64,000 bases of DNA from NCBI GenBank assembly GCA_022760475.1, contig JALEFZ010000006.1:186001-250000 (forward strand), read 5' to 3'. Below, in pieces: positions 21,384-61,158 of the stretch; positions within the stretch are counted from its first letter, which is position 1; each line of letters begins with the position of its first letter. The notes below the pieces were generated by a model. It had not been told where the DNA came from, did not search any database, and was given only the letters and a program-made list of their open reading frames with translations. The DNA is from Bacteroidia bacterium (GTDB lineage Bacteria; Bacteroidota; Bacteroidia; J057). The position numbers were made by a program, and so were the translations under genes.

Positions 21384-22487
21384 TCAACGAAGTTGAATCG
21401 CCTTGCCTGATTTTGCAGATTTCATGGCCGCGTCCAGTATTTCCATAACTGTCATGTTGACCTCAAGGGAGGAAAGTTCGATTTCGCTTACTTTATGAGT
21501 TCCCCGAACCGTCGCTGCCAATAAGGCAAAAGGATCATCCAAGGGAGTTTCCAGCTTGGCAAGAGGCAGTTGACGTTCTTTCTGACCTTCATTTTCCCAG
21601 TACATCAAGGTAGACCTGTCTTTTGCAAGAAAATAGCCTTCTTTCCCATATACTTCCATGTCCTTTCTGTTGTAAGTCCAGTTCCAGGAGGCCTGGATAA
21701 TGGCTTGTGCCTTGGGATAAGTCAATACAATGGTTGCTTCATCATCTACCTTGGGGTAGAGTTCAGGTTTGATTTGCTGGGTAACAGCGAAAACAGATAA
21801 GGGTTTTTCTCCTTTCATGAGCCAGGTCATGAGGTCTGCTCCATAGCAACCAAAATCAGTGAGGGCACCTGCTCCATTTTGTTCAGGATCTGTGAGCCAT
21901 TCGAGGAACTCTTCATTGCAGCCAATCTCAATTGGTCCTGGATGACCGTCATGAATTACTACCTTCCTGATTTCTCCGATTGCAGAATACTTATTTTTGT
22001 GAATGAGTTCGTAGATCCTATGGTTGGAGGGGTACCAGGTCGTTTCATAATTGGTAAGTAAATGAATGCCATGGGTCTTTGCCAATTGCTCCATCTTTTT
22101 GGCATGTTTCAGGCTTACAGCCAAGGGCTTTTCGACCATTACATGGATTTTTCTTGCTGCACAGTATTCCACGGTTTCCAGGTGTTGGGAAATGGTGTTG
22201 AAGGCACAGACGGCCTCAGGTTTGGTTTTTTCAACCATTTCGGGCAGGCTGGCATACCAAAGAGTTGTATCCAGCCCATGCTGCTTCAGGTACCTCATAG
22301 CCAATTCCTTATTGGGTTCTGCTATCCCGACTATGTCAATGTCTCCCCTTTTTTCTCTCCCCAATAGCCAGTGGACATGGGTATGGGTAAAGCCATCAAT
22401 GCCAATTCTCACAGGTTTAGCATCAGTTTGGGAGAATCCAGTCATGCTCATAAGGATTAGGCTGAGTAGTAGTAGAAGATTTTTCAT
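21384..22487 (-). CDS. Exported Gfo/Idh/MocA family oxidoreductase
   Basis: The 367-residue protein has a signal peptide (MKNLLLLLSLILMSMTGFSQ), so it is expected in the periplasm. VRIGIDGFTHTHVHWLLGR replaces the usual GxGxxG dinucleotide loop. IVGIAEPNKELAMRYLKQHG, KPEAVCAFNTISQHLETVEYC and VMVEKPLAVSLKHAKKME carry the family order, with the catalytic Lys in EKPLA. The catalytic domain contains TDFGCYGADLMTWLM. It may be an NAD-dependent sugar dehydrogenase or a GH109-type glycosidase, but the weak nucleotide loop makes cofactor binding uncertain. It diverges from neuA. Confidence 0.78.
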   Translation of the reverse strand: MKNLLLLLSLILMSMTGFSQTDAKPVRIGIDGFTHTHVHWLLGREKRGDIDIVGIAEPNKELAMRYLKQHGLDTTLWYASLPEMVEKTKPEAVCAFNTISQHLETVEYCAARKIHVMVEKPLAVSLKHAKKMEQLAKTHGIHLLTNYETTWYPSNHRIYELIHKNKYSAIGEIRKVVIHDGHPGPIEIGCNEEFLEWLTDPEQNGAGALTDFGCYGADLMTWLMKGEKPLSVFAVTQQIKPELYPKVDDEATIVLTYPKAQAIIQASWNWTYNRKDMEVYGKEGYFLAKDRSTLMYWENEGQKERQLPLAKLETPLDDPFALLAATVRGTHKVSEIELSSLEVNMTVMEILDAAMKSAKSGKAIQLR

Positions 22488-22570: not shown

Positions 22571-23293
22571 ATGAATATTTTGATTACCATCTGCGCCCGT
22601 GGAGGTTCCAAGGGAGTACCGAATAAAAATATCCTTGACATCGGAGGCAAGCCCCTCATTGCCTATTCTATACAGACTGCTCAAACTTTTGCAAAGAATC
22701 ATGGGGCAGAAATTGTCCTTTCAACTGAATCTGAAAAAATAAGGGGAGTTGCAGCGAAGCATGGCCTCGAATCTCCTTACCGAAGGCCTGAAAGCCTGGC
22801 TGGAGACCGAGTGGGGAAAGTGGCGGTGATCCGCGATGCATGGGAATGGGCAGAAAAGCACTTTGAAAAAAGCTATGAGCTGGTGCTTGACCTGGATGTA
22901 ACCTCACCCCTACGCACCCAAAAAGACCTTGCAGAAGCCCTGGAGAAAATTCAGCGGCTGAAGGAAGCAAAAGTCCTGTACTCCGTAAGCCACGCCCGAA
23001 GAAATCCCTATTTCAATATGGTTGAGGAGGCGGATAATGATTTGGTCAAGCTGGCAAAAAGACCTGATAAACCCTTTTTATCCAGGCAAGTAGCCCCCAA
23101 GGTTTACGATATCAATGGTTCATTTTATTTCTACAAAAGAGAGTTCTTCGTCGAAGGCTTCGAGAGCGTTACCCTTGACCATCAGTCTACAGTTTATGTC
23201 ATGACCCATCTTTGTTTTGACATTGATGAGCCCTTGGACTATACCTTCATGAAGTTTTTGATTGAAGGTGGGCATTTGGAAATAGAGGTCTAA
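22571..23293 (+). CDS. neuA: CMP-nonulosonic acid cytidylyltransferase (NeuA/LegF type)
   Basis: The 240-residue enzyme couples CTP to a nine-carbon keto sugar acid, giving the CMP-sugar donor. ILITICARGGSKGVPNKNI is the CTP-binding N-terminus. EIVLSTESEKI, YRRPESLAGD, LVLDLDVTSPLRTQKDLAEA and YDINGSFYFYKREFF are in family order. It is the only plus-strand gene of the nonulosonic locus, and its stop codon abuts that of the polysialyltransferase-like gene with no base between. With NeuB, NeuC and the Bac-type enzymes on the other strand, the likely substrate is legionaminic acid rather than Neu5Ac. Confidence 0.9.
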   Translation: MNILITICARGGSKGVPNKNILDIGGKPLIAYSIQTAQTFAKNHGAEIVLSTESEKIRGVAAKHGLESPYRRPESLAGDRVGKVAVIRDAWEWAEKHFEKSYELVLDLDVTSPLRTQKDLAEALEKIQRLKEAKVLYSVSHARRNPYFNMVEEADNDLVKLAKRPDKPFLSRQVAPKVYDINGSFYFYKREFFVEGFESVTLDHQSTVYVMTHLCFDIDEPLDYTFMKFLIEGGHLEIEV

Positions 23294-24466
23294 TCAATGG
23301 ATTTCCTTTACATGCTTACCAAAGACTTCCTTTAGGAGGGGATAAAGATCTTTCCACCTTTTCACATACATCGGAGGGCTGTTTTGGGTAAATTCAAATA
23401 AGGGCTGAATGCCGAAATAGTACTGGGTTTCCTTGGCAGGATAGAGCCTTGAAAGGTAAAAGACTGCCGAAGAGAAAGGCGAAAATACATAGGCCACCTT
23501 TCCGTACATTTTCTTGAATATCAATTCCAGGTTGAGGCTTTTCAGCTCGGGCTTATCCCAGATAAGCACATCCAGGCCTTTTGCCGATAAATGGTCAATG
23601 ATTTTTTCAATGACTTCCTTTTCCTGTCTGGGGTGGGGTTTAATCAAAAATGTGTATTGGCTAGGTTCGTTGATTCGATCCACACACAAGTCCAGAAATT
23701 TTTCCCAAAAGGCATCCGAAACTTCAAACTGCTTCAAGGCCTGAGTGGCAATTAGTACTAGGGCTTTTTCTGATGGGAGTTCTACTTTATTGATCAATGG
23801 GAAATAGGTCTCTAGCTTCAGGTCATCCTGAAGAAATCCTTTTTCGCTCACGACAGGGTGAATAAAGCTGGATTTTAAACCCCTGTTTTCCTGAAAGGCC
23901 CTTAACTCTTCATCAAATACACAGTGAAATTTGATGCCTGTTTTTGCCCCCCTTTCATCATCCATGACATCCAGATAGTCTCCCAATCCATGCTCGAAAT
24001 AAGAGATATCAGACGTGGGAAATTTATTTTTGATGGATGAGTTCAGCTTCACCAGGGGCTGGGTATGCAATTTGAAGGCTTCATAGTCTATACCAAATGC
24101 ATCTGCACATTTTTCCTCAAGCCTTTCCTGCAACTTTTTGCTCTCCTGAGCCTGCTGTCTTTGGTACAGCATGTCATAGACTTGTTTGAAGCCTGGAAGG
24201 GTTTTGGCCTTTCTTGTCAATCGCTTTTTTAGGCTTGGCACCTGCGAAGAGTTTTCTGCCATTGGAAGAGACATGTCCACGACCCAATCGTAGGCATGAT
24301 GAGAAATAGCCTGCAAAATCGGACCCTTCTGCGAAGGCTTTAGTGCCAAAGCATCTACAATGAAGAGGTCTTGGTCTTCACTGCCCTTGGTATTTTTAGC
24401 ATAAATGGACTGATAGAGGGCAGATAGCCCCGAAGTACTAATGAATATCCTGAGCGTCTTTCCCAT
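23294..24466 (-). CDS. Polysialyltransferase-like (POLYST-type) glycosyltransferase
   Basis: The protein has 390 residues with no signal peptide. Three short motifs match bacterial sialyl- and polysialyltransferases of the GT-B type: an acidic-Gly motif SYFEHGLGDY (about 156-165), a His-Pro motif LIKPHPRQE (about 274-282) and a Ser-Ser motif VFSPFSSAVFY (about 327-337). These are the proposed acid, CMP-binding and phosphate-binding sites. It starts two bases after the dehydratase gene at the end of the nonulosonic operon and faces neuA. I infer that it transfers the CMP-activated sugar to a surface glycan. A single addition or a polymer are both possible. Confidence 0.6.
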   Translation of the reverse strand: MGKTLRIFISTSGLSALYQSIYAKNTKGSEDQDLFIVDALALKPSQKGPILQAISHHAYDWVVDMSLPMAENSSQVPSLKKRLTRKAKTLPGFKQVYDMLYQRQQAQESKKLQERLEEKCADAFGIDYEAFKLHTQPLVKLNSSIKNKFPTSDISYFEHGLGDYLDVMDDERGAKTGIKFHCVFDEELRAFQENRGLKSSFIHPVVSEKGFLQDDLKLETYFPLINKVELPSEKALVLIATQALKQFEVSDAFWEKFLDLCVDRINEPSQYTFLIKPHPRQEKEVIEKIIDHLSAKGLDVLIWDKPELKSLNLELIFKKMYGKVAYVFSPFSSAVFYLSRLYPAKETQYYFGIQPLFEFTQNSPPMYVKRWKDLYPLLKEVFGKHVKEIH

Positions 24467-24468
24467 CT

Positions 24469-25464
24469 TTATAGAATTTGCTCCCTATACAGCAAATCCC
24501 TGATTTCTTCCTGAGAAAGCATCTCCATGTTGTCAGAACTGTAATTGGAAAAACTTGCATGGGTGTCCGGCTGGAAATTGTCGTAAGGCGAGTTCCTTAG
24601 GATAAACATGCTGTCAGTTTCTTCAATGAAGGGTCTTTCTTCCTCGGTAAACAAGGCTTCGTACAACTTCTCTCCAGGCCTCAGTCCAATAACCTTGATT
24701 TCGATGTCATCCGGCTTATGGCCATATTTAGCGGCGAGTTCCTGGATCATTACTTCTGCCAGGTCTTTGATTTTGAGCCCGTTCATTTTCAGGACAAAAA
24801 TCTCTCGCCCATTCATGTTTTCTGCCGCCCTTAGAATCAGTGAAACAGCCTGGGGAATGGTCATAAAAAACCTGGTCATATCCTCAGAGGTAAGCGTAAT
24901 CGGACCTCCCTGGGAAATCTGATTTCTGAACAATGGAATAACCGAACCTACGGAGTTGAGGACATTACCGAAGCGTACACAAGCAAAATTGGTTTGGGAA
25001 GTACCCAGGGGAGCATTGATGATGATGCGTTCTCCCAGCAATTTGGTGGCTCCCATGGTATTGATTGGGCTAACCGCCTTATCTGTTGAGATCCCAACCA
25101 TCTTCTGGACATTGTTTTCAATAGCTGCCTCGACTACATGCTTTGTCCCGATCACATTGGTGTAGACAGCCTCGAAGGGGTTATACTCACAGAATGGAAC
25201 ATGCTTCAGGGCGGCTGCATGGAAAATATAATCTACGCCTTCTGCTGCCCTCAAAATCCTGTCTCTGTCTCGGACATCTCCGATCAGGTTTCTGATTCGA
25301 TTGGATTTTATTTTTTGATTTAGGTTAAAATGTCCCGATTCACTGTTGTCCAGCACCCTTACTCTTTTGGGATCAAATGGGATAAGCTGTTTAACAATTT
25401 CGGAACCTATTGATCCGCAACCACCTGTTACGAGTATGTCTTTGCCTTCGAATAATTCGTTCAT
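24469..25464 (-). CDS. UDP-GlcNAc 4,6-dehydratase (LegB/PglF-like, retaining type)
   Basis: The 331-residue extended SDR begins ILVTGGCGSIGSEIVKQL (cofactor loop), then LDNSESGHFNLNQK and YIFHAAALKHVPFCE. The catalytic region is GISTDKAVSPINTMGATKL. The Thr-Asp-Lys triad is present, and a Met replaces the Tyr of inverting PseB/FlaA1 enzymes, as in PglF- and WbpM-type retaining dehydratases. It should make UDP-4-keto-6-deoxy-GlcNAc, the first step towards bacillosamine and legionaminic acid. GLRPGEKLYEALF is typical of the family. It lies between the aminotransferase gene (65-base gap with a hairpin) and the transferase gene (two bases). Confidence 0.87.
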   Translation of the reverse strand: MNELFEGKDILVTGGCGSIGSEIVKQLIPFDPKRVRVLDNSESGHFNLNQKIKSNRIRNLIGDVRDRDRILRAAEGVDYIFHAAALKHVPFCEYNPFEAVYTNVIGTKHVVEAAIENNVQKMVGISTDKAVSPINTMGATKLLGERIIINAPLGTSQTNFACVRFGNVLNSVGSVIPLFRNQISQGGPITLTSEDMTRFFMTIPQAVSLILRAAENMNGREIFVLKMNGLKIKDLAEVMIQELAAKYGHKPDDIEIKVIGLRPGEKLYEALFTEEERPFIEETDSMFILRNSPYDNFQPDTHASFSNYSSDNMEMLSQEEIRDLLYREQIL

Positions 25465-25490
25465 CAGAGTTTAAAGTATCTCATTGAGGC

Positions 25491-25517
25491 TCTGCCTCGG
25501 ACTGGAGTCCAGGCAGA
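25491..25517 (-). promoter_or_regulatory. Stem-loop between the aminotransferase and dehydratase genes
   Basis: TCTGCCT pairs with AGGCAGA and, inside it, GGACT pairs with AGTCC around a two-base loop, with one unpaired base between the stems. There is no T-run after it on the minus strand, so it is not a standard terminator. It may set mRNA stability or partial read-through within the operon. That role is inference. Confidence 0.5.
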
Positions 25518-25529
25518 ACTGAAAATCGT

Positions 25530-26654
25530 TTAGTTTAATTTGCCCATGATTGTCTTGAGGTTTTCATAGACATAAGCGACCTCTTCATCCGTCATCTGTG
25601 GATAAAAGGGCAGAATGACCATTTCGTGGCTTAGGCTTTCAGCGACAGGATAGTCCCCCTCTTTGTAGCCATAACTTTCCATGTAAAATTCCTGAAGATG
25701 GATGCAGGGAGAAAAATATGCTTTGGACTGGACTCCTGTATTGTTCAATTCCTCGATCAATTGATCTCTGATTTCCTCTCTTACCCTGATCCCAAATACA
25801 AACCACGCATGCTCGTTGCCTTCTGAAGTTTCAGGCAGCCTGATACCGTCAATGTCTTTTAACATTTCAAGGTATTTGTTAGCGAGTCTTTGCCTTTGGC
25901 TAATGAATTCTGGTAGACGCCTGGTTTGTACCACTCCAAGTGCGGCAGTCAATTCATTGATTCGGTAGTTGTACCCCAGACGGGTGTGAGATAACCATTG
26001 CATGTCATCTCCACGGCCCTGGTTGCGCATGCTCCTGGTCAGGCGATAGATTTCATCGTCATTGGTGATGAGCATACCCCCTTCTCCGGTGGTCATTTGT
26101 TTGTTGGGATAGAAACCAAATGCGCCACAGTCTCCTATGGTACCGGAAATTTGCCCCCGGTGGGTGCCCAAAGGAGCTTCGCATGCATCTTCGATGACCT
26201 TCAAGTTATATTTCTTGGCCAATGCCATGATTTCGGTCATGTTGGAGCATTGCCCGAAAACGTGTACCGGCAGTATGGCCTTGGTTTTTGGAGTGATAGC
26301 TGCTTCAATCAATGAAACATCCATATTGAAGCTGTTGGCTTCTACATCTACAAACACTGGTGTTCCCCTTTCAAAAAGGATGCAGTTGGCTGAGGCGATG
26401 AAGGAAAATGGTGAGGTGATCACTTCATCTCTGTCTGAAATTCCGAGGGCACGGATGGCCAGGTGTAAGGCAGAGGTTCCTGAGTTACACGCGACTGCAT
26501 ACTTGCTCCCCATGGTTTCAGCAAAAATCTCCTCAAACTCCTGTGTTACAGGTCCCAGGCTCAGGCGAGGAGAGCGAAGGACTTCGTTTACTTTCTGAAT
26601 TTCTGCCTCGCTGATATCAGGCTTGGACAGAGGAATATTCAATTTTGTTTTCAT
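25530..26654 (-). CDS. PLP-dependent sugar aminotransferase (DegT/DnrJ/EryC1 family, LegC-like)
   Basis: The 374-residue enzyme adds an amino group to a 4-keto nucleotide sugar using glutamate and PLP. IPLSKPDISEAEIQKVNEVL is the family start. CNSGTSALHLAI and SPFSFIASANCILF bind the cofactor phosphate. VIEDACEAPLG carries the Asp that pairs with the pyridine nitrogen (about 156), and FGFYPNKQMTTGEGG holds the Schiff-base Lys (about 185). Its start overlaps the acyltransferase stop by four bases. Placed between the acyltransferase and the 4,6-dehydratase, it should make the UDP-4-amino sugar. Confidence 0.88.
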   Translation of the reverse strand: MKTKLNIPLSKPDISEAEIQKVNEVLRSPRLSLGPVTQEFEEIFAETMGSKYAVACNSGTSALHLAIRALGISDRDEVITSPFSFIASANCILFERGTPVFVDVEANSFNMDVSLIEAAITPKTKAILPVHVFGQCSNMTEIMALAKKYNLKVIEDACEAPLGTHRGQISGTIGDCGAFGFYPNKQMTTGEGGMLITNDDEIYRLTRSMRNQGRGDDMQWLSHTRLGYNYRINELTAALGVVQTRRLPEFISQRQRLANKYLEMLKDIDGIRLPETSEGNEHAWFVFGIRVREEIRDQLIEELNNTGVQSKAYFSPCIHLQEFYMESYGYKEGDYPVAESLSHEMVILPFYPQMTDEEVAYVYENLKTIMGKLN

Positions 26655-27061
26655 TCCTGATCGATTGTTCTGATGATTTTTACGGGTGTACCAACAGCGA
26701 TGACATTGTCCGGGATGTCTTTGTTGACGAAGCTGAAGGCTCCAATGATGGAGTTTTCTCCGATCGTAACTCCGGGCATCACCACAGCGTGTGATCCGAT
26801 GCGGGCATTTTTCTTAATGGTTACTTTGCCCTTTTTGTTGTCAATGGTGCTCAGGCTATAAATGGAACAATGGCTTCCAATTTGTGCCCATTCACCAATT
26901 TCTACGCCGTGCTTGGCATTGATATAGGTAAAGGCACCAATGTCAGACTTGTATCCAATTTCAAGATTATCTTTGTGCTGGACCATCCAGTTCCACTTGG
27001 TGAGTTTTCCATCTTCAAGTTCGGGGGCTTTCCAGCCATCAAAGCGATCTTCTTCAGACAT
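26651..27061 (-). CDS. Left-handed beta-helix acyltransferase (probable LegH role)
   Basis: The protein has 136 residues from the ATG at 27061; a TTG seven codons earlier is possible. From about residue 40 it is hexapeptide repeats (IGYKSDIGAFTYINAKHG, VEIGEWAQIGSHCSIYS, VTIKKNARIGSHAVVMPG, VTIGENSIIGAFSFVNKDIP), ending in VIAVGTPVKIIR. This folds into a trimeric beta-helix that uses acetyl-CoA. By position it should N-acetylate the 4-amino sugar made by the aminotransferase. It lacks the N-terminal Rossmann-like domain of PglD-type enzymes and is therefore short for that role. O-acetylation or another acyl group is an alternative. Confidence 0.75.
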   Translation of the reverse strand: MSEEDRFDGWKAPELEDGKLTKWNWMVQHKDNLEIGYKSDIGAFTYINAKHGVEIGEWAQIGSHCSIYSLSTIDNKKGKVTIKKNARIGSHAVVMPGVTIGENSIIGAFSFVNKDIPDNVIAVGTPVKIIRTIDQE

Positions 27062-27124
27062 AGGATTAGTTGTTTTTTCCAATAGACAAAAAAGAAGGCA
27101 AGACCCACCTGCCCTTACAAATAT

Positions 27125-28264
27125 CTAATATTCTATCTGCTTTTGAAGCAAATCTGAATCTATTTTTAAATCAATCAAATGACCCACAATCCGTTCTCCA
27201 GCTTTTCCATCTCCATATGGATTTACCGATCCCCTCAATTGGTTTTGGAAATCTTCCCCCCCCAAGGCCATTTCCAGCCCTTTGAGGATATTTTTCTTGC
27301 CATTTTCTACATCAATGACATTTTTTCCCCTCAATCTTCCCAACTGTCTTTCTCCAATATTTACAACAGGGGTTTGGAAAGAAGGCGCTTCTATGATGCC
27401 AGCACTTGAATTTCCTACCATTACAGAAGCATGCTTCATTAGACTCAAAAATCTTTGACGCTGAAGGGAGCTGAAGGTCTTTATACCTGCCTGACCTTCA
27501 ATTTTTTGTATTACTTCGATCATACTTTTCCCACCTGCATCTGCATTGGGATAGACAATGACAGTCTGAAGATTTTTTTCAAGAATGGCTTCCAGGCTTG
27601 CTTCAATTTGAGAAGCTGCAAGTTCAACCTCCTCACTCACCGGATGCTGTATCAGGAGACAAAGGGCTTTATTTACATCGAAACCGAGGTTTTCAAAAAG
27701 CTCCTCTTTACTCAGTAGGCTTTCATCGATTCCATCCAGGCCAGGGGCTCCACATACATGAACGTGTTTTGGGGATTCCCCCATTTTCAGGATGCGCTTA
27801 GCAGAGTCTTCTGTAGCTGGAAAATGTACCTGAGCGAGTTTGGTGATGGCATGTCGGACAGCTTCGTCTACGGTAGAGGTCACTTCACCGCCGTGGATGT
27901 GAGCTACTGCTATGCCTAGGTAAAGAGCCGCAGAAGCAGCTGCCAACATTTCTCCACGATCTCCCAATAAAAGAATTACATCAGGTTTTTCAGCCTGAAA
28001 TATATCTACCATGCCACGCAGACTGTCTCCCACGAAGGCCGCCATGGCAGCACGGCTGTCTTCTTCGAAGATGACAGGAAGCTCAATCAGCTCGAAATTA
28101 TCAGCCTTGATTTCATTCAGCGTGTATCCCCTGGATTCCATCAGGTGCATGCCTGTGGCCAGGACTTTTAATTCTAAATGATCTGAGGCCTCAATGGCTT
28201 TCAAAGTCCTTCGCATGAGCCCATAATCGGCGCGGGTTCCACTGATATAGAGTATCTTCTTCAT
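27125..28264 (-). CDS. neuC: UDP-sugar hydrolysing 2-epimerase (NeuC/LegG type)
   Basis: The 379-residue enzyme starts at ATG 28264, overlapping the neuB stop by four bases. KKILYISGTRADYGLMR is the standard NeuC start. TGMHLMESRGYTLNEI, LLLGDRGEMLAAASAALYL, AHIHGGEVTSTVDEAVRHAI and VGNSSAGIIEAPSF follow in family order, in a GT-B fold. It hydrolyses the UDP-sugar and inverts C2, giving a free ManNAc-type sugar. With the dehydratase, aminotransferase and acyltransferase alongside, the expected substrate is UDP-diacetamido-trideoxyglucose rather than UDP-GlcNAc. The sequence alone does not settle this. Confidence 0.92.
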   Translation of the reverse strand: MKKILYISGTRADYGLMRRTLKAIEASDHLELKVLATGMHLMESRGYTLNEIKADNFELIELPVIFEEDSRAAMAAFVGDSLRGMVDIFQAEKPDVILLLGDRGEMLAAASAALYLGIAVAHIHGGEVTSTVDEAVRHAITKLAQVHFPATEDSAKRILKMGESPKHVHVCGAPGLDGIDESLLSKEELFENLGFDVNKALCLLIQHPVSEEVELAASQIEASLEAILEKNLQTVIVYPNADAGGKSMIEVIQKIEGQAGIKTFSSLQRQRFLSLMKHASVMVGNSSAGIIEAPSFQTPVVNIGERQLGRLRGKNVIDVENGKKNILKGLEMALGGEDFQNQLRGSVNPYGDGKAGERIVGHLIDLKIDSDLLQKQIEY

Positions 28265-29313
28265 TTGAGCATTTCCCAACTAATCAAGGCCTCCAGGGGA
28301 ATCTCCTGAGCGGCCTCTTTACCAATGATTTTTGAAAATTCAGCAGGAGCTATACCTGTTCCAGGACGTTTAATGGTCAGCATTTTAGCTTCAATTAGGC
28401 TTCCCTTTGGAATCTCCACCGCTGCAACAATGCTTTTGCGGGCTACCTTGGCAACTTCAAGTTCGGCAGCGGTTGGTTCCTTCTCTGCTCGTCCTCTGAC
28501 GACCTCCATCAAGCGGATGCTTTTGACCATCTCAGCCAATTCATCCGGTTCCAATGATGCCTTGTGATCAGGGCCTTCCATATTCTTGTCCAGGGTAAAA
28601 TGCTTTTCGATGACCACAGCACCCATGGCCACTGCTGCAGTGGGTACCAGGATGCCTTCGGTATGATCAGAATAACCCAAAAGGCTGTTGGTCTGGTCAG
28701 AAAGGGTGTGCATGGCCCGTAAGTTGGCATCTTCGAGTGGGGTAGGATAATTCGAAGTACAGTGTAAGAAGATCACTTGTTTATTGCCCGTAGAAAGGAT
28801 AGCCGTTTTGGCTGCTTCTACTTCATCCATGGTAGCCATTCCCGTAGAAACGATCATCGGAAGGCCTTTTTGGGCCATATAGATCAGATAGGGAATATTG
28901 GTAAGATCTCCTGAACCTACTTTGAATGCATTAACATCAAGTCCATGAAGGTAATCAATGGCTGATTCATCAAAGGGGGTGGCCATGAAGGTCATTCCCT
29001 GTGATTCTGTATATGCTTTTAGCTCTGCAAAAGCCTCTTCAGGTAGCTCCAATCGCTTGAGCATCTCATACTGCGATTCTGTTTTTCCCAAATTCTTGCT
29101 CTGATAGGCAGCTTGCTTGGCTGATTTGGTAACCAATTTGTCAGCAGAGAATAACTGAAATTTTACTGCATCAACACCTGAATCTTTGCCTGCATCCACC
29201 AGTTTTTTTGCAAGTGCAAAGTCTCCATTATGGTTGACTCCTGCTTCAGCAATGATGAAAACAGAGCCATTTGGCTTGATGAGTTTTTGACCTATTTGAA
29301 TCTCTTGCTCCAT
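28261..29313 (-). CDS. neuB: Nonulosonic acid synthase (NeuB/LegI type)
   Basis: The 350-residue enzyme condenses phosphoenolpyruvate with a six-carbon sugar to make a nine-carbon acid. IAEAGVNHNGDFALAKKLVD is the N-terminal TIM-barrel signature. AVKFQLFSADKLVTKSAKQA, FMATPFDESAID, VNAFKVGSGDLTNIPYL, PMIVSTGMAT, LHCTSNYPTP and GYSDHTEGI carry metal and PEP ligands. The C-terminal SAF (antifreeze-like) domain starts near residue 285 (SIVAAVEIPKGSLIEA) with the conserved KRPGTGI. It begins one base after the flippase stop. The likely product is legionaminic acid. Confidence 0.93.
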   Translation of the reverse strand: MEQEIQIGQKLIKPNGSVFIIAEAGVNHNGDFALAKKLVDAGKDSGVDAVKFQLFSADKLVTKSAKQAAYQSKNLGKTESQYEMLKRLELPEEAFAELKAYTESQGMTFMATPFDESAIDYLHGLDVNAFKVGSGDLTNIPYLIYMAQKGLPMIVSTGMATMDEVEAAKTAILSTGNKQVIFLHCTSNYPTPLEDANLRAMHTLSDQTNSLLGYSDHTEGILVPTAAVAMGAVVIEKHFTLDKNMEGPDHKASLEPDELAEMVKSIRLMEVVRGRAEKEPTAAELEVAKVARKSIVAAVEIPKGSLIEAKMLTIKRPGTGIAPAEFSKIIGKEAAQEIPLEALISWEMLK

Positions 29314-29314
29314 C

Positions 29315-30829
29315 TTATTTTTTTCTTTTCAAAAAAGGTTTCAGTAAAGTAGGTACGCCCAATCTTGCTGCAATTCTTTCTATGTACTCATTGACATCCT
29401 TTGAGACTTCCAACCTTAACATCAATCCTCCGAAGATCAAGGTAAAAATCAATGACCTGACAGGAATATCCATCAAAAAGGGCATTTGAGGAATAAACTC
29501 TATCACTCCATAGCCCAACACTCCAATCAGGATGATGAGCAGCATCGGCCTACTGAAGGGCTGTAACTTGAACAAGATCCAAACTGCAATGATCCTTGCC
29601 ATATTGATACTGACAAGGGAAATGGCCGTAGCGGCAGCAGCTCCATAAATGCCATACTGTGGTATGAGCCATAGGTTGGTGCCGATCCCGATCCCGATGA
29701 GTGCCAATTGGAAGAAGGTATCGAAAATATATTTTCTGGAAGTGCTCAAGATGATGCCATTTAGCCCTGCCGTCATGTCAAAGACCTTTGCCAGTCCCAA
29801 AATCAGTAAAACGGGCAAACCTGGGCTATAATCCCCGCCCTGCATGATCGAAAAGAGGTTTTGCCGATTGATCCAAATCCCAAGGAAGATGAAGACACCA
29901 GCCATCATGCTAATGAGCGAAGTGCGTTGGTAGATCCGCTGCATTTCCTTCATGTTTTTCTGTTTCCAATGATCTGCCACCAAAGCACCAGAAATTCTCA
30001 TCAAGGCTTTATATGGGATGGTGATCACTGAAGAAATAAAACTCATGACCAAAAATATTCCGATTCTTTCTTCCTTGACATAAAAGGTCAGCATGAAAAG
30101 GTCCAGGTAGCTGAGTACGATGGAAGAGCCATATGAAAGGAAGGTCGCCAGGGTGTAGCCAAAAATTCGTTTGTAAAGCCTTTGCCAGACCCTTCCGAAG
30201 TTGGGTAGAATGAAAAACTGCCTTAGGTAAATAAGGTAGATCACGGGGACAAAGGCTGCCAGGATCACCAGGGCAACATAAAAGTCTACAAAAAAGTCAA
30301 AATCAATGTATCCAAGGGCGTACAGGCAGATTCCAATGCTTGCTGGCAGACGAAGCAAGATCTCTCGAACGAGGCTCATCACCGCGATTTTGTAGAGAGA
30401 ACGGAGGTAAGCCTCGAAGAAATTGATCATGAGGTAGCAAAAGGCAAAGGGGAAGAGCAGGTAATATTTTTCGTGGAGGATGGGGGTTTGGACTGACCAA
30501 ATGTCAAGTATTTGGTCCTGAAAAAGGAAGAAGATCAGTGAAAACAAGCCGAAGCCTACCAGATTGATCAGAAAAAAGCCAAACAGAAAGCCATTGTGTT
30601 TGCGTTCCTTTTGCCTAAAGAAGGGGAAAAAGCGTAGCGTTGCATTTGGGGTTCCCAAGGCTGCAAATTGGGAAAACATCAAGGCAAGGCTTGGTAAGGC
30701 ATTGAAAAAACCAACTTGAGAGAGGGTAAGGAAGTTGGTGAACAGCACCACCTTGTTGACAAATCCAAGAGCAGCACCCGCATAACTGATGATGGCCGCT
30801 GATACCCCTTGCTTTTGTACTACTCCCAT
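29315..30829 (-). CDS. Wzx-like polysaccharide flippase (MATE/MVF superfamily)
   Basis: The 504-residue membrane protein has about 12-14 hydrophobic segments. AAIISYAGAALGFVNKVVLF is the first, and the second half includes IPYKALMRISGALVADHWKQKN, typical of O-antigen translocases. The C-terminus is basic (LKPFLKRKK). It should flip lipid-linked oligosaccharide to the outer leaflet. The ATG at 30829 is preferred to one four codons earlier. It is the first surface-glycan gene of the nonulosonic operon, 65 bases after the nucleosidase gene. No Wzy or Wza is present, so the rest of the export route is elsewhere. Confidence 0.85.
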   Translation of the reverse strand: MGVVQKQGVSAAIISYAGAALGFVNKVVLFTNFLTLSQVGFFNALPSLALMFSQFAALGTPNATLRFFPFFRQKERKHNGFLFGFFLINLVGFGLFSLIFFLFQDQILDIWSVQTPILHEKYYLLFPFAFCYLMINFFEAYLRSLYKIAVMSLVREILLRLPASIGICLYALGYIDFDFFVDFYVALVILAAFVPVIYLIYLRQFFILPNFGRVWQRLYKRIFGYTLATFLSYGSSIVLSYLDLFMLTFYVKEERIGIFLVMSFISSVITIPYKALMRISGALVADHWKQKNMKEMQRIYQRTSLISMMAGVFIFLGIWINRQNLFSIMQGGDYSPGLPVLLILGLAKVFDMTAGLNGIILSTSRKYIFDTFFQLALIGIGIGTNLWLIPQYGIYGAAAATAISLVSINMARIIAVWILFKLQPFSRPMLLIILIGVLGYGVIEFIPQMPFLMDIPVRSLIFTLIFGGLMLRLEVSKDVNEYIERIAARLGVPTLLKPFLKRKK

Positions 30830-30894
30830 GTTTTGTGGCAAATAAATTTGAAGCCCTAAAGATGGGAAAATAATGTCATTGGTTCCATAGGAGC

Positions 30895-43249: not shown

Positions 43250-43966
43250 TTACTCAACTACAGCGATGATCACACCAAAATTTCCATCCAGTTGAATCCA
43301 GTCTTTGGAAGGAATGTAAGCCCTTGAGACAAAACCATCCAGATATAGCGCATTTTTACATCCTTTTTCCTTAAAAAAACTGGCAAAATCATAAAGATTT
43401 ACCCGCTCTTTCGAGATGGCGAAGATGAGTCTGCCGTCTTCCAATATCCCCACACCATTTCTAATGTGTGTATTTGAAGAGCCCTTAGTAAATTTTGGAT
43501 GGATTTTGCCGTCAATAACAAGCATGGGGCCTGACTGGGTGGCGTACTTTGCTTTTGTTCCATTTTTGAATTGGGGAGTGGTACAGATAATGGGCTGGTT
43601 ATCAGGAGTCAAGTAAAAAATACCATTGGGTTGCAGGTAGAAATTGCCATAGGCTTTTTTAACTCTGTTTGCCTTTTTTTTGACTACTCCATTTTCAATA
43701 AATAAGCCTTGAGGAGAAAGGTCTTTCAGGTACATTCCTCCATTCATGGCAAAAAGAAGGCTTTGACCATTGCCCTCCAGGTATGATTTTAGCTTCCCCA
43801 GGCTCTTGATTGGCTGTCCATTTTCTTTCTTCCAATAGAATTTTAGGTGTGATTCTCTTGGATCAATTACATAATCAATGATTCGATGGTCTGAAGGTGT
43901 AGGGCGAGAAACCAACCCAAGCCATATCAAACTACAAAGCACCGTAAGAAGCAGGTATGTTTTCAT
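43250..43966 (-). CDS. Exported phosphodiester glycosidase family protein (DUF2233/NAGPA-like)
   Basis: The 238-residue protein has an N-terminal signal or anchor (LLLTVLCSLIWLGLVS). The NAGPA-like core includes FAMNGGMYLKDLSPQGLFIENG, FYLQPNGIFYL, ATQSGPMLVIDGKIHPKF, RNGVGILEDGRLIFAIS and KNALYLDGFVSRAYIP, with the conserved N-G-G, S-G-P and D-G motifs of this fold. Family members cleave GlcNAc-phosphodiesters or related cell-wall links. Here the substrate is unknown. Its start overlaps the stop of the upstream SnoaL-like gene by four bases, so they are translationally coupled. Confidence 0.82.
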   Translation of the reverse strand: MKTYLLLTVLCSLIWLGLVSRPTPSDHRIIDYVIDPRESHLKFYWKKENGQPIKSLGKLKSYLEGNGQSLLFAMNGGMYLKDLSPQGLFIENGVVKKKANRVKKAYGNFYLQPNGIFYLTPDNQPIICTTPQFKNGTKAKYATQSGPMLVIDGKIHPKFTKGSSNTHIRNGVGILEDGRLIFAISKERVNLYDFASFFKEKGCKNALYLDGFVSRAYIPSKDWIQLDGNFGVIIAVVE

Positions 43967-44835
43967 TCATTTTGGGGCGAAAAGTCAACAACTGTGTCTA
44001 TGGATTTTATCTTTAAGGCATCATCATAGGTCAAGACCTCAACTGCAAGGTTTTCAGCATGCCATTGAGCGTCAGGGCCTTTTTCAAAATTTTGTATCAA
44101 ATAAATACATTGATTCCCAGAAATAAAGCTAAGCAGTGTTTTGGATTGCCTCAACGTATCTACTTTAAGGCTCTTGGCAAGTTTATCCTTGACCTTGGGC
44201 TTACCTTCAATGAATACGTATTTCTCACCACTAAATTCTCCTGGCATAGCATGGAGGCCTTTGGTAGATAGAGTTATGTTTTCCGCCAAAAGATGGCTGA
44301 AGTCACTGACCACCTCTCTATTCCTAAACACTTTTGAAAGGCTATCCAGGGCTTTAAGGTCTGAGGTAGGTTCCATAACTATTTTACCATTCATGCTTGA
44401 ATTCACATAATCGACATAGTCCACCTGACTTTGAATTTTCCCATTTCTGATTTGTAGAACATGTATAAATTCTGCTTCCCAGACCCCAGCTTTTCCATAA
44501 TCAACTTTAATTTTCCCTTGATAAACCGCCATTTCTCCTGAAAAAAAGCTATGAGAAATGATTCTTTCGATACTCGATGCAGATTTGAATGCGAGTTGAT
44601 ACATCTGCTGGATTTTCTTTTGTCCTGACAGCAGAATGGGTTTTCCGTTGTTCTGCTCCGCGATGGTTTGATCCGCAAAAGTGGCATCTTCAGCAAAAAG
44701 ATTAGCTAAATCTTTTATCTCTAGTTGATCATAGTGCCTGAGGAATTGGGCTGCAATTTCTTTTACCTCTGGCTTGGTTTGAGCTAGAAGTGTTGCCCCT
44801 GAAAAGGCCAGAATTAAGCAGAATAGGTGTTTCAT
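43963..44835 (-). CDS. Exported protein with two SnoaL/NTF2-like domains
   Basis: The 290-residue protein has a signal peptide (HLFCLILAFSGATLLAQ). The first NTF2-like unit (about 24-155) has AAQFLRHYDQLEIKDLANLF, EDATFADQT and YQGKIKVDYG then VLQIRNGKIQSQVDYVDYV. A second, more divergent unit (about 160-285) has HLLAENITLSTKGLHAM, KTLLSFISGNQCIYLIQNF and LAVEVLTYDDALKIKSID. Such cone-shaped folds bind small ligands or act as isomerases; no catalytic residues stand out. It is coupled to the phosphodiester glycosidase gene, suggesting joint work in the periplasm. Confidence 0.68.
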   Translation of the reverse strand: MKHLFCLILAFSGATLLAQTKPEVKEIAAQFLRHYDQLEIKDLANLFAEDATFADQTIAEQNNGKPILLSGQKKIQQMYQLAFKSASSIERIISHSFFSGEMAVYQGKIKVDYGKAGVWEAEFIHVLQIRNGKIQSQVDYVDYVNSSMNGKIVMEPTSDLKALDSLSKVFRNREVVSDFSHLLAENITLSTKGLHAMPGEFSGEKYVFIEGKPKVKDKLAKSLKVDTLRQSKTLLSFISGNQCIYLIQNFEKGPDAQWHAENLAVEVLTYDDALKIKSIDTVVDFSPQNE

Positions 44836-58621: not shown

Positions 58622-60190
58622 CTATTTCATTCTGACAATTACTACATTGTCCAAAATAGACCTGTCTGCAATGCTTTTTATTTTAAGTGTTCCCGAAGCT
58701 CGGTAGTACCCACTGGCATTGGTAGGCCCACTGGATCTTTTTGTATCAAGATTTGCATTAGCGATTTTATTGAGTTTGACGTATTGTTGGGATTTGTTCT
58801 TTCCAGCCCTGCCTGCAGGGTCATGCACGATGATGTAATTACTCCTTTCATTGCCATTTTGATCTACCCCATATCCAATAGCCGTGACCCAATGGCCTCC
58901 TACTCGGGTGTACTTGTTTTTATTGGCGTCGTATTCGTACCAACCTACATTCAGGAAAACCATTGAGTGTTCGAGAATTCCCTTTTTGATCCAATCCATT
59001 TTTGGTTTTGATCCAATTTTGTCAGATGAATTCTTCCAACCTGCCATTTCAATGGACTTAGGACTATAGCCTTTGTCTTGCAGGTATTTTTTTATGCCTG
59101 AGATCATTTTTGAGGGACCGGTACCACTGCCTTCCTCGGTATTCATGTATTTGGGTTTGGCCAGGTCAAGTACCATTTTGATTTGACCAGATTTGCTGTT
59201 GGCATAGGGATTAATTTTGGGGTAATTATTTTTGTCAAGCCAAACGAATGCATTGGAAGTTGCCACGGGTCCGCAATAATCACTTGTTCCTGCAGACTCT
59301 GGGAATGCATCGTCATTTTGACAGAGGTCAGGTGTCTCCTGAATTTTGTATGTGTACTTATTTGGAGGGCTATAGACTGCAGAATTGGTATTATGGACTT
59401 CAAAATCTACCAATTCCACATTCTCACTGGATTTCTGCTTACGATTGGCTCTAAAACTCAAAAAATCCACATTTGATCTCATAGACCAAGCGCCTGTTTT
59501 CTTTTCAAAGATGCAGAGGTAATAGGTTTTTCCATTGATGCTTTTTCTTTCAAAGTCTGAGGGACGCCAGCCTTGAGCAATCAATTGATCTCGTTTGCTT
59601 TTGAATTTGGTAAAACTGGTGAATTGATAAAGCCTGTTTTTACTGCCTGTAGTTTGGGTGAAAAGTGCCAGGTATTTTTGTTGTCCATTTTCCAGGTAGG
59701 TTTCCACATCTACGATATGAAGTCCTTTGGCTTGGAGCTGGACCATCTTTTCTGTGAGTTTGATGTGGCTACTGAGCCGCCAGAGTTCATGATTTTTAGT
59801 GCCTGATTTCCAAATACCCATGAAATATTGCTGGCTTCCTTCATGGTAGCTTTCTACATCGATGAGGGTTTTTGAGCCTTGAAGTTCCTTTTTCTTATTC
59901 AGGAAGTTGGTATATCCAACTGTTTTGTAGAGGTATCTGACCTCAGAATGATCCTTTGTCCAAGTGGCATAGTACTTTCTTTGGCCATTGACTTGCAGGC
60001 TTTCAATATCTGTAAGGCGATAGCCTTGACTACGGATTTCCTTGTCCTTGTCTTTCAGTCCTGACCAGCTTGTCCAATACCAGTGGTATTGGTTTTTAGA
60101 ACTGGCTTGCCATACGCCTGACCAGCCCTTTTGGGCATGGCTGTGGGTAAGGAGAAATAAAAGGGGCCAAAGGAGTATTTGCTTTTTCAT
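58622..60190 (-). CDS. Exported papain-like (C39-type) cysteine peptidase with N-terminal tandem repeats
   Basis: The 522-residue protein has a signal peptide (KKQILLWPLLFLLTHSHAQ). Residues about 22-265 hold five repeats of roughly 45 residues in the pattern L-x-x-x-G-[YLW]-x-x-x-D-[IV]-E-x-[YS]-x-x-x-G-x-x-x-Y-x-x-x-[WF]: GYRLTDIESLQVNGQRKYYA, TLIDVESYHEGSQQYFMG, GLHIVDVETYLENGQQKYLA, GWRPSDFERKSINGKTYYLC and a degenerate last one. They resemble bacterial tandem repeat domain 1. The peptidase part has SDYCGPVATSNAF (Cys 306), RVGGHWVTAIGYG (His 433) and IIVHDPAG (Asp 457). It may cut peptides or act as a toxin. The EAD-TIR gene lies 77 bases upstream. Confidence 0.72.
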   Translation of the reverse strand: MKKQILLWPLLFLLTHSHAQKGWSGVWQASSKNQYHWYWTSWSGLKDKDKEIRSQGYRLTDIESLQVNGQRKYYATWTKDHSEVRYLYKTVGYTNFLNKKKELQGSKTLIDVESYHEGSQQYFMGIWKSGTKNHELWRLSSHIKLTEKMVQLQAKGLHIVDVETYLENGQQKYLALFTQTTGSKNRLYQFTSFTKFKSKRDQLIAQGWRPSDFERKSINGKTYYLCIFEKKTGAWSMRSNVDFLSFRANRKQKSSENVELVDFEVHNTNSAVYSPPNKYTYKIQETPDLCQNDDAFPESAGTSDYCGPVATSNAFVWLDKNNYPKINPYANSKSGQIKMVLDLAKPKYMNTEEGSGTGPSKMISGIKKYLQDKGYSPKSIEMAGWKNSSDKIGSKPKMDWIKKGILEHSMVFLNVGWYEYDANKNKYTRVGGHWVTAIGYGVDQNGNERSNYIIVHDPAGRAGKNKSQQYVKLNKIANANLDTKRSSGPTNASGYYRASGTLKIKSIADRSILDNVVIVRMK

Positions 60191-60267
60191 GATTAGGTTG
60201 TGTTTGTTTCATGAAAAAGGACGTAGAGGGGGGGATATTTACATATGCCTTTTGATTGCCTGCTTGA

Positions 60268-61158
60268 TCAATCCAAAATTTTTAATCTCTTATCTATAGT
60301 TTCCTTGACCTTTTGAAAGTTTTCTTCACTAAGTAGCGGGATTGTCATTGAGTTCCAATCTGAAAGCCAATCAAGTAAGGTGGTCAACTTCCCTTTTATG
60401 TTGGCAACCTTTTCATAATTTCGTCTTATACCAAGAGCAGTCAGGTTCTCTATATACAACTCTTCCCATTCTTTTTCTAAAGCCTTCCAATGGGTTAGGT
60501 ACTTTCTCATACTTTGAGGAGTATTAAACCTAAGATTTTCAAGGTTAATGGGAAGGATTCTTGATCTTACTAGCTCCTCTTCCCACTTATTGTTTCTGGC
60601 TATTTCAAATAGCTCAAACATTGAATAATCAGATCGCACGTATTTGTCACTAATAAAAACGAGTATTAAGCCGCCTTCACCCATATCTTTCATGAATTCC
60701 AAAATGGATTCTCCATATGCCAAGTCAACTTTATCTCTTACTAGTTGATATCCATCCCTTTCCAAATCATTGTATAATTTGTCTACAACGATCTCCAGGT
60801 TTTTCCTGTTTTCAATTTCTTCGGGAGAAAAGCCCTCCCTTTCTTTATCATCCTTCCAGGAATAGGAGAAATAGATTTTATGTTTACTTTTCTGAGTTTT
60901 AATGTCCTTAGGAGAAGTAGTTTCTTTATACAAAAACTCATAAGTCTGCATAATAGAATTAATAACCTGAGCACTTTCAACTCTGATCTGTTCCCTGCTT
61001 AGGATTCCTAGTATTTGATTGGTCTTTAACTCGGTATAATCTCTTTGAAGTTTGGATACGGCTTGAGTTAATTGACCTTTTTCATTGGCTAAATCCAATA
61101 AGCTAGTCAAGGCCTCGTCTATTCTATTTTCACTAATTAGTTTATGGTAGTCTATCAT
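60268..61158 (-). CDS. EAD11-TIR protein: effector-associated domain fused to a TIR domain
   Basis: The 296-residue soluble protein has two parts. Residues about 1-75 (LISENRIDEALTSLLDLANE, LQRDYTELKTNQILGILSRE, then a helix with SAQVINSIMQTYEFL) match the pattern of effector-associated domain 11, an adaptor of NTP-dependent conflict systems. Residues about 93-260 form a TIR domain: KHKIYFSYSWKDDKE (first strand), VVDKLYNDLERDGYQLVRDK, YGESILEFMKDMGEGGLILVFIS and SDYSMFELFEIA with the expected catalytic Glu 182. TIR enzymes split NAD+ or signal through it. A matching EAD partner (NTPase, VMAP or caspase-like) is not in the window. The domain calls are by eye. Confidence 0.75.
   Translation of the reverse strand: MIDYHKLISENRIDEALTSLLDLANEKGQLTQAVSKLQRDYTELKTNQILGILSREQIRVESAQVINSIMQTYEFLYKETTSPKDIKTQKSKHKIYFSYSWKDDKEREGFSPEEIENRKNLEIVVDKLYNDLERDGYQLVRDKVDLAYGESILEFMKDMGEGGLILVFISDKYVRSDYSMFELFEIARNNKWEEELVRSRILPINLENLRFNTPQSMRKYLTHWKALEKEWEELYIENLTALGIRRNYEKVANIKGKLTTLLDWLSDWNSMTIPLLSEENFQKVKETIDKRLKILD

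Follow-up and report, generated by a model that had tools for sequence, protein, structure and literature searches.

A PF07388 protein encoded with a nonulosonic acid pathway and a flippase in Bacteroidia is a candidate legionaminic acid transferase

The last gene of an operon in the 64,000-nucleotide stretch of Bacteroidia DNA analysed here (the window) probably encodes a CMP-legionaminate transferase that would cap an oligosaccharide before it is flipped; judging from sequence, gene neighbourhood and predicted structures, we put the probability of this reading at about 60%. Such an enzyme would join legionaminic acid, which resembles sialic acid and occurs in bacteria, to a glycan of the cell surface. 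The protein is a PF07388 member and most likely a distant cousin of the known sialic acid transferases, not a new kind of system. A sequence-only reading had proposed a legionaminyl- or polylegionaminyltransferase. The PF07388 match, the fold matches to sialyltransferases and the nonulosonate operon speak for that interpretation, but its polymerase version found no support.

Results

Gene and operon

The transferase gene is an open frame with an ATG start and a TGA stop (Table 1). It had been placed at the end of an operon from the sequence alone, and we confirmed this position: it follows the dehydratase gene at a distance of 2 bp, and its stop codon directly adjoins the stop codon of neuA, which runs towards it on the plus strand. 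The operon comprises seven minus-strand genes that encode, in order, a flippase, a NeuB-type synthase, a NeuC-type 2-epimerase, a hexapeptide acetyltransferase, a DegT aminotransferase, a 4,6-dehydratase and the transferase, with spacings of 1, -19, 42, -4, 65 and 2 bp when mechanically listed starts are used. A promoter and terminator scan found fewer sites than in shuffles, and we therefore gave it no weight. Divergent from neuA lies a gene (window 21384-22487, (-)) for a GFO/IDH/MocA oxidoreductase that seems to carry a signal peptide.

Table 1. Window coordinates of the transferase gene, its motifs and the neighbouring pathway genes
Feature	Coordinates	Strand	Remarks
CMP-nonulosonate synthetase, NeuA/LegF type	22571..23293	(+)	PF02348; best PDB match a CMP-Neu5Ac synthetase; convergent, abutting
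POLYST-family transferase	23294..24466	(-)	390 aa, last operon gene; PF07388 E 6.2e-12; predicted MhPST-like fold
SPFSS; S332-S333, candidate phosphate-binding S-[ST] pair	23468..23482	(-)	S-[ST] in 11/11; S339/T340 of MhPST
E314, candidate ribose-binding Glu (E323 of MhPST)	23525..23527	(-)	identical in 11/11; assigned by order and spacing
K276-P277-H278-P279, (K/R)xHP CMP-binding motif	23630..23641	(-)	KxHP in 11/11; motif meaning as described in PMC12887879 and PMC5517516
E158-H159-G160	23987..23995	(-)	identical in 11/11; His159 at the putative base position, after PMC5517516
Nucleotide-sugar 4,6-dehydratase	24469..25464	(-)	PF02719; Met for catalytic Tyr; best PDB sequence 6bwc, 300 bits
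DegT-type sugar aminotransferase	25530..26654	(-)	PF01041; perosamine synthases best, PseC (2fn6) last of 44
Hexapeptide acetyltransferase	26651..27082	(-)	PF00132; short 143-aa form, TTG start as mechanically listed
Hydrolysing 2-epimerase, NeuC/LegG type	27125..28279	(-)	TIGR03568, 425 bits (cut-off 235.9); best PDB match diacetylbacillosamine 2-epimerase
Nonulosonate synthase, NeuB/LegI type	28261..29313	(-)	TIGR03569, 453.5 bits (cut-off 399.65); best PDB match SpsE
Wzx-like flippase, first operon gene	29315..30841	(-)	PF01943, 24.5 bits, under cut-off of 28.2; relatives adjoin transferase in 8/11 other loci

Conserved residues and predicted active site

EHG, KPHP and SPFSS, the motifs noted in the sequence-only reading, each occur once in the transferase, at residues 158, 276 and 329. 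Could they have arisen by chance? A relaxed version of the motifs in fixed order ([DE][DEH]G, 90-170 residues, [KR]xHP, 35-75 residues, S[ST]) matched 15 of 20,000 shuffles of the transferase protein. Among the 49 window frames of at least 200 residues it matched only the transferase itself. Among 486 such frames from fetched loci longer than 5 kb it matched 13, namely 12 relatives of the transferase (10 distinct genes, since L023 duplicates L038 and L024 duplicates L040) and one unrelated frame in L046. With these counts and the conservation of the columns, we rejected a chance origin of the motifs. The window protein and ten aligned relatives, which are 26-34% identical to it, share E158, H159, G160, D163, Y164, K276, H278, P279, E314, S332 and Y337 in all 11 sequences, and residue 333 is Ser or Thr throughout. 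SPFSS was rejected as a family motif: the exact word is found in two of the 11 (window and L040), and its constant part is only S-[ST].

The motifs had been read as the active-site pattern of sialyl- and polysialyltransferases. This stands for KxHP and S-[ST], which are constant, but EHG, present in 11 of 11, departs from the published D/E-D/E-G motif with its carboxylate base (PMC2169525). In MhPST, the GT38 enzyme of Mannheimia haemolytica, the donor site is described as K289, H291, P292, E323, S339 and T340 (PMC5517516). By position, the conserved KxHP, E314 and S-[ST] appear to correspond to this CMP-donor site: KxHP does so directly, and the order and spacing of E314 and S332/S333 agree with it (His-Glu, 36 versus 32 residues; His-Ser, 54 versus 48). 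(K/R)xHP is described as common to sialyltransferases and retaining Kdo transferases (PMC12887879); hence it marks a CMP-ulosonate donor, not sialic acid in particular.

The base of MhPST is given as E153, within D/E-D/E-G and next to E152, and T155 as equivalent to S143 of PmST1, two residues after D141 (PMC5517516). This numbering puts the likely base at the second residue of the motif and so points to His159 here. Because that residue is His in 11 of 11, EHG lies outside the published motif, and we kept the transferase out of GT38. Other PF07388 proteins, read by eye, have QHG in two cases (L014 and L017) and EEG, DDG or DEG in others; His at the putative base position is thus not unique to the aligned group. 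A tentative idea, which we consider less likely than not, sees the aligned proteins as an unnamed family of their own in Bacteroidota: transferases for legionaminate (nonulosonate) that are coupled to a flippase and in which the catalytic carboxylate of sialyltransferases has given way to the invariant His of E-H-G.

Family membership and distribution

The PF07388 (POLYST) match of the transferase scored 46.1 bits against a curated cut-off of 23.3. Nine of the 11 aligned members match this family at E up to 1 (L038 with 24.7 bits), and the L041 relative has no match at 0.001. Up to E 1, the only other Pfam match of the transferase was ACC_central, below cut-off; no Kdo, CDP-glycerol or epimerase family was matched. 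NCBIfam and PHROGs profiles gave no match, nor was a convincing PDB chain found by sequence with the transferase protein alone or the 11-row profile. PF07388 also includes genes in other settings, and two proteins that we read by eye as UDP-GlcNAc 2-epimerases match it at 20.5 and 19.6 bits, under the cut-off; given these two, we rejected a PF07388 match alone as proof of function.

The family around the transferase is thin. Relatives were found in 7 of 198 near-relative genomes, 2 of 22 genomes of the order and 13 of 395 class genomes (one a weak match, G673 at 3.3e-4, later dropped); in a phylum-wide draw, the single positive genome of 395 was the source genome itself. An N-terminal fragment at a contig end (G688) was left out of the alignments and kept among the 11 other loci as L063. 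Phages, plasmids, viral contigs and PHROGs gave no sequence match, and a viral fold search gave only low-scoring GT-B matches; there is thus no sign of a viral or plasmid gene. Titles and abstracts of the open-licence literature yielded no paper on a POLYST-type legionaminyltransferase in Bacteroidota.

Predicted fold

We modelled the transferase with AlphaFold2 from three sequences (mean pLDDT 66.4, pTM 0.67). The prediction is good over the C-terminal half and poor for residues 68-140. VIA-align placed MhPST at the top for this predicted structure (5wc6, Z 14.5, rmsd 5.8, 280 aligned; 5wcn, Z 13.8), followed by GT80 enzymes (Z 13.4 and lower) and by UDP-GlcNAc 2-epimerases from Z 12.2 down, and Foldseek ranked 5wcn first (E 3.0e-8). 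The Z gaps in this list are small, so we take the fold match as support, not proof. A second model, of the L024 relative (31% identical, mean pLDDT 64.2), again had MhPST on top (Z 13.4, rmsd 5.1, 239 aligned, and Z 13.2), with the next entry at 11.2; the retaining Kdo transferase 9yfx was among its matches (Z 9.5, 131 aligned). GT80 structures rank below GT38 for both predicted structures. No GT52 entry was among the 50 matches listed for either model, an absence that does not exclude GT52. These models of modest confidence suggest a GT-B fold like that of MhPST, and their best matches, GT38 and GT80, lie within the GT-B sialyltransferases and not outside them, in keeping with the sequence-only reading.

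Loci of the relatives

In eight of the 11 other loci (L039, L041-L046 and L063, the last a 3.2-kb contig), the transferase gene has next to it a gene related to the window flippase. The remaining three (L038, L040 and L047) have no flippase relative. They have no neuB or neuA relatives within reach either, which counts against our preferred reading, though their genomes have neuB elsewhere. neuB lies within 10 kb in five of the other loci (L041, L042, L044, L045 and L046); a sixth, L043, has neuA and an aminotransferase gene near the transferase gene, and L039 has only a 28-bit neuA match, near a contig end. With the window included, neuB linkage is seen in 6 of 12 loci (chance at most 3.8e-7 under two rough assumptions), and linkage to neuB and neuA recurs in several taxonomic families. 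All 12 transferase genomes encode a strong NeuB somewhere; of the genomes sampled from the class, 208 of 390 do so (hypergeometric 4.5e-4, kinship uncorrected; 50 weak NeuB rows were tallied by hand for the latter count). Over eight loci, transferase and flippase identities correlate (r 0.84), as linkage or common descent would give.

Ten loci with other PF07388 genes (L048-L057), of 21 places beyond the close family, served as controls. Four of them (L049, L052, L056 and L057) contain neuB or neuC relatives. The typical PF01943 flippase of L050 was unmatched by the window flippase at E 1e-5; hence, as far as this single control of its sort goes, the matches beside the relatives are not to just any flippase.

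Several of these loci have features of their own. On the flank of the flippase gene that faces away from the transferase, L039, L041, L042, L043 and L045 have an adjoining Methyltransf_23 gene, and L046 has one less than 2 kb from its flippase gene; this suggests a methylated glycan in those loci. No such gene adjoins the window flippase. In G010, a family relative of the window (L038:10719-11882, L058), the transferase homologue is found on its own next to rnc, fabF and a pyruvate kinase gene, and a NeuB-NeuC-aminotransferase-dehydratase run without flippase or transferase is on another contig. The corresponding fabF, rnc and pyruvate kinase genes of the window are at about 46.8-51.3 kb. The nonulosonate loci L041 (8645-11479) and L045 (12207-15013) both encode a GNAT acetyltransferase fused to a xylose-isomerase-like barrel, adjoining neuB, and the L041 DegT aminotransferase, also adjoining neuB, carries N-terminal CBS domains; the nonulosonate pathway of these two loci is unusual.

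Elsewhere in the window, an EAD11-TIR protein adjoins a BTRD1-repeat protein (58622-61158, (-)), possibly as a conflict or defence pair; PADLOC gave only a weak bSEFIR match, for the EAD11-TIR protein. A gene for a NAGPA-type phosphodiester glycosidase overlaps a SnoaL-like gene (43250-44835, (-)).

The candidate donor

Which nonulosonic acid would the transferase use? All six enzyme classes for CMP-legionaminate by the UDP route are represented by one gene each at 22571-29313, neuA counted, so that the operon and neuA cover every class that the synthesis of CMP-legionaminic acid, or of an isomer, requires. The sequence-only reading had expected a non-sialic donor, and the neighbouring pathway does fit legionaminic better than sialic acid. 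A UDP-linked route to Leg5,7Ac2 is described for Bacillus subtilis (PMC7439481), and the matches of the 2-epimerase, the synthase (SpsE) and the aminotransferase fit Leg5,7Ac2 made in this way. NCBIfam cut-offs were unreached for LegB (73.1 of 475 bits), LegC (276.3 of 420 bits) and PseF; PseB and PseC outscore LegB and LegC, all four being below cut-off, and the synthase passes the NeuB cut-off and not that of PseI. The LegB and LegC models may not fit the UDP route, and we therefore term the product legionaminic acid or an isomer. The solved relatives of the dehydratase rank as 6bwc, then CapE-type, PseB and PglF; being nearer to CapE and PseB types than to PglF, it casts doubt on the C5 configuration and makes an isomer possible. 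Met at the dehydratase Tyr position is described in both C5-inverting and C5-retaining enzymes (PMC7439481), and for that reason we rejected it as proof of a C5-retaining enzyme.

Comparison with known systems

MhPST (5wc6, 5wcn) is the best fold for both models and shares the KxHP, Glu and S-[ST] donor residues. Unlike MhPST, to which it has no sequence-level match, the window protein has His at the base position, and it is encoded with a pathway that appears to make a non-sialic acid and with a flippase instead of a capsule exporter. The GT80 mono-sialyltransferases (PmST1, Photobacterium), the second fold group, share the HP motif and the one-residue transfer that we propose here; they have a carboxylate base, however (D141 in PmST1, PMC5517516), and the window protein does not match them by sequence.

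Tannerella forsythia PseT/GtfS and LegT/TFUB4_00887 are likewise from Bacteroidota and are described as having a Pse or Leg donor and an HP motif. Their clusters have wzx beside CMP-Pse or CMP-Leg genes, and transferase knockouts lose the terminal acid of the O-glycan (PMC6120980, PMC6388019). As described, these enzymes are 442-445 aa long with a TagB domain and D/E-D/E-G; for the window protein, Pfam up to E 1 gave POLYST and the below-cut-off ACC_central only. The B. subtilis sps legionaminic acid pathway resembles that of the window in its UDP-linked route, in SpsE, the nearest match of the window synthase, and in a Met-type dehydratase, SpsM (PMC7439481). By the published account its own transferase, in contrast, has not been identified yet, SpsA and SpsB having been ruled out as required.

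Discussion

We propose that the donor is a nonulosonic acid activated with CMP and that it is most likely CMP-Leg5,7Ac2, supplied by the same operon and neuA. K276 and P279 would hold the cytosine, E314 the ribose, and H278, S332 and S333 the phosphate; H278 would also stabilise CMP as it leaves. The acceptor may be deprotonated by His159 or, alternatively, by Glu158 of EHG, and the linkage would form by attack at C2 with inversion of the anomeric centre. In this way the GT-B transferase would add one residue, on the cytoplasmic side, to an oligosaccharide that is probably lipid-linked, and the Wzx-like flippase would then export the product. Single-residue transfer followed by flipping is proposed by analogy with T. 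forsythia; a review of Bacteroidota describes an outer glycan that is assembled in the cytoplasm and then flipped (PMC12871550). The operon contains no other glycosyltransferase, hence none to build the acceptor, and this counts against the proposal.

Might the enzyme instead be a polymerase that adds one legionaminic acid residue after another, building poly-legionaminic acid in the way that GT38 enzymes build polysialic acid? Its best fold match and its Pfam family are polysialyltransferases, and the family tends to be mildly basic, with a pI of 7.4-9.2 in 10 of 11 members and of 6.3 in L038. The window protein is far from strongly basic, however (53 K+R versus 51 D+E), His stands at the position of the carboxylate base of MhPST and its relatives, and PF07388 extends beyond such settings. 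As in group 2 capsules, a polymer made in the cytoplasm is expected to exit by an ABC exporter. The constant neighbour here is a flippase, in the operon and beside most relatives, and no capsule ABC exporter was found among the genes annotated in this analysis. We conclude that a polymerase is very unlikely, and the polylegionaminyltransferase option of the earlier reading is unsupported. A closer contender, though still an unlikely one in our estimate, is the same chemistry with another donor: a legionaminic acid isomer (4-epi, 8-epi or a C5-inverted relative) or pseudaminic acid. The ranking of the dehydratase relatives, its ambiguous Met and the higher PseB and PseC scores fit such a donor, and in Acinetobacter additional genes are described that turn CMP-Leg into other isomers (PMC5595891). 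Three pathway enzymes argue for legionaminic acid: the hydrolysing 2-epimerase is nearest to the diacetylbacillosamine enzyme, the synthase behaves as NeuB and not PseI and is nearest to SpsE, and the aminotransferase is far from PseC.

That the protein is not a nonulosonate transferase at all, and is a Kdo or CDP-polyol transferase or another GT-B enzyme located here by chance, we regard as highly improbable. The (K/R)xHP motif shared with retaining Kdo transferases, the 9yfx match of the second model and the weak PF07388 scores of the putative 2-epimerases would allow it. They are outweighed by the near full-length fold match to GT38 and GT80, by the repeated linkage to neuB and neuA across taxonomic families and by the Pfam search, in which Kdo, CDP-glycerol and epimerase families did not appear.

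Legionaminic acid transferases are scarce. The T. forsythia enzymes are backed by knockouts (PMC6388019), and Campylobacter Maf4 is termed putative (PMC9298399). If the legionaminate transferase reading is true, this small family would supply, out of compact operons that combine pathway and flippase, an enzyme of use in legionaminoside synthesis, and it would offer a natural test of histidine as the base in a sialyltransferase fold.
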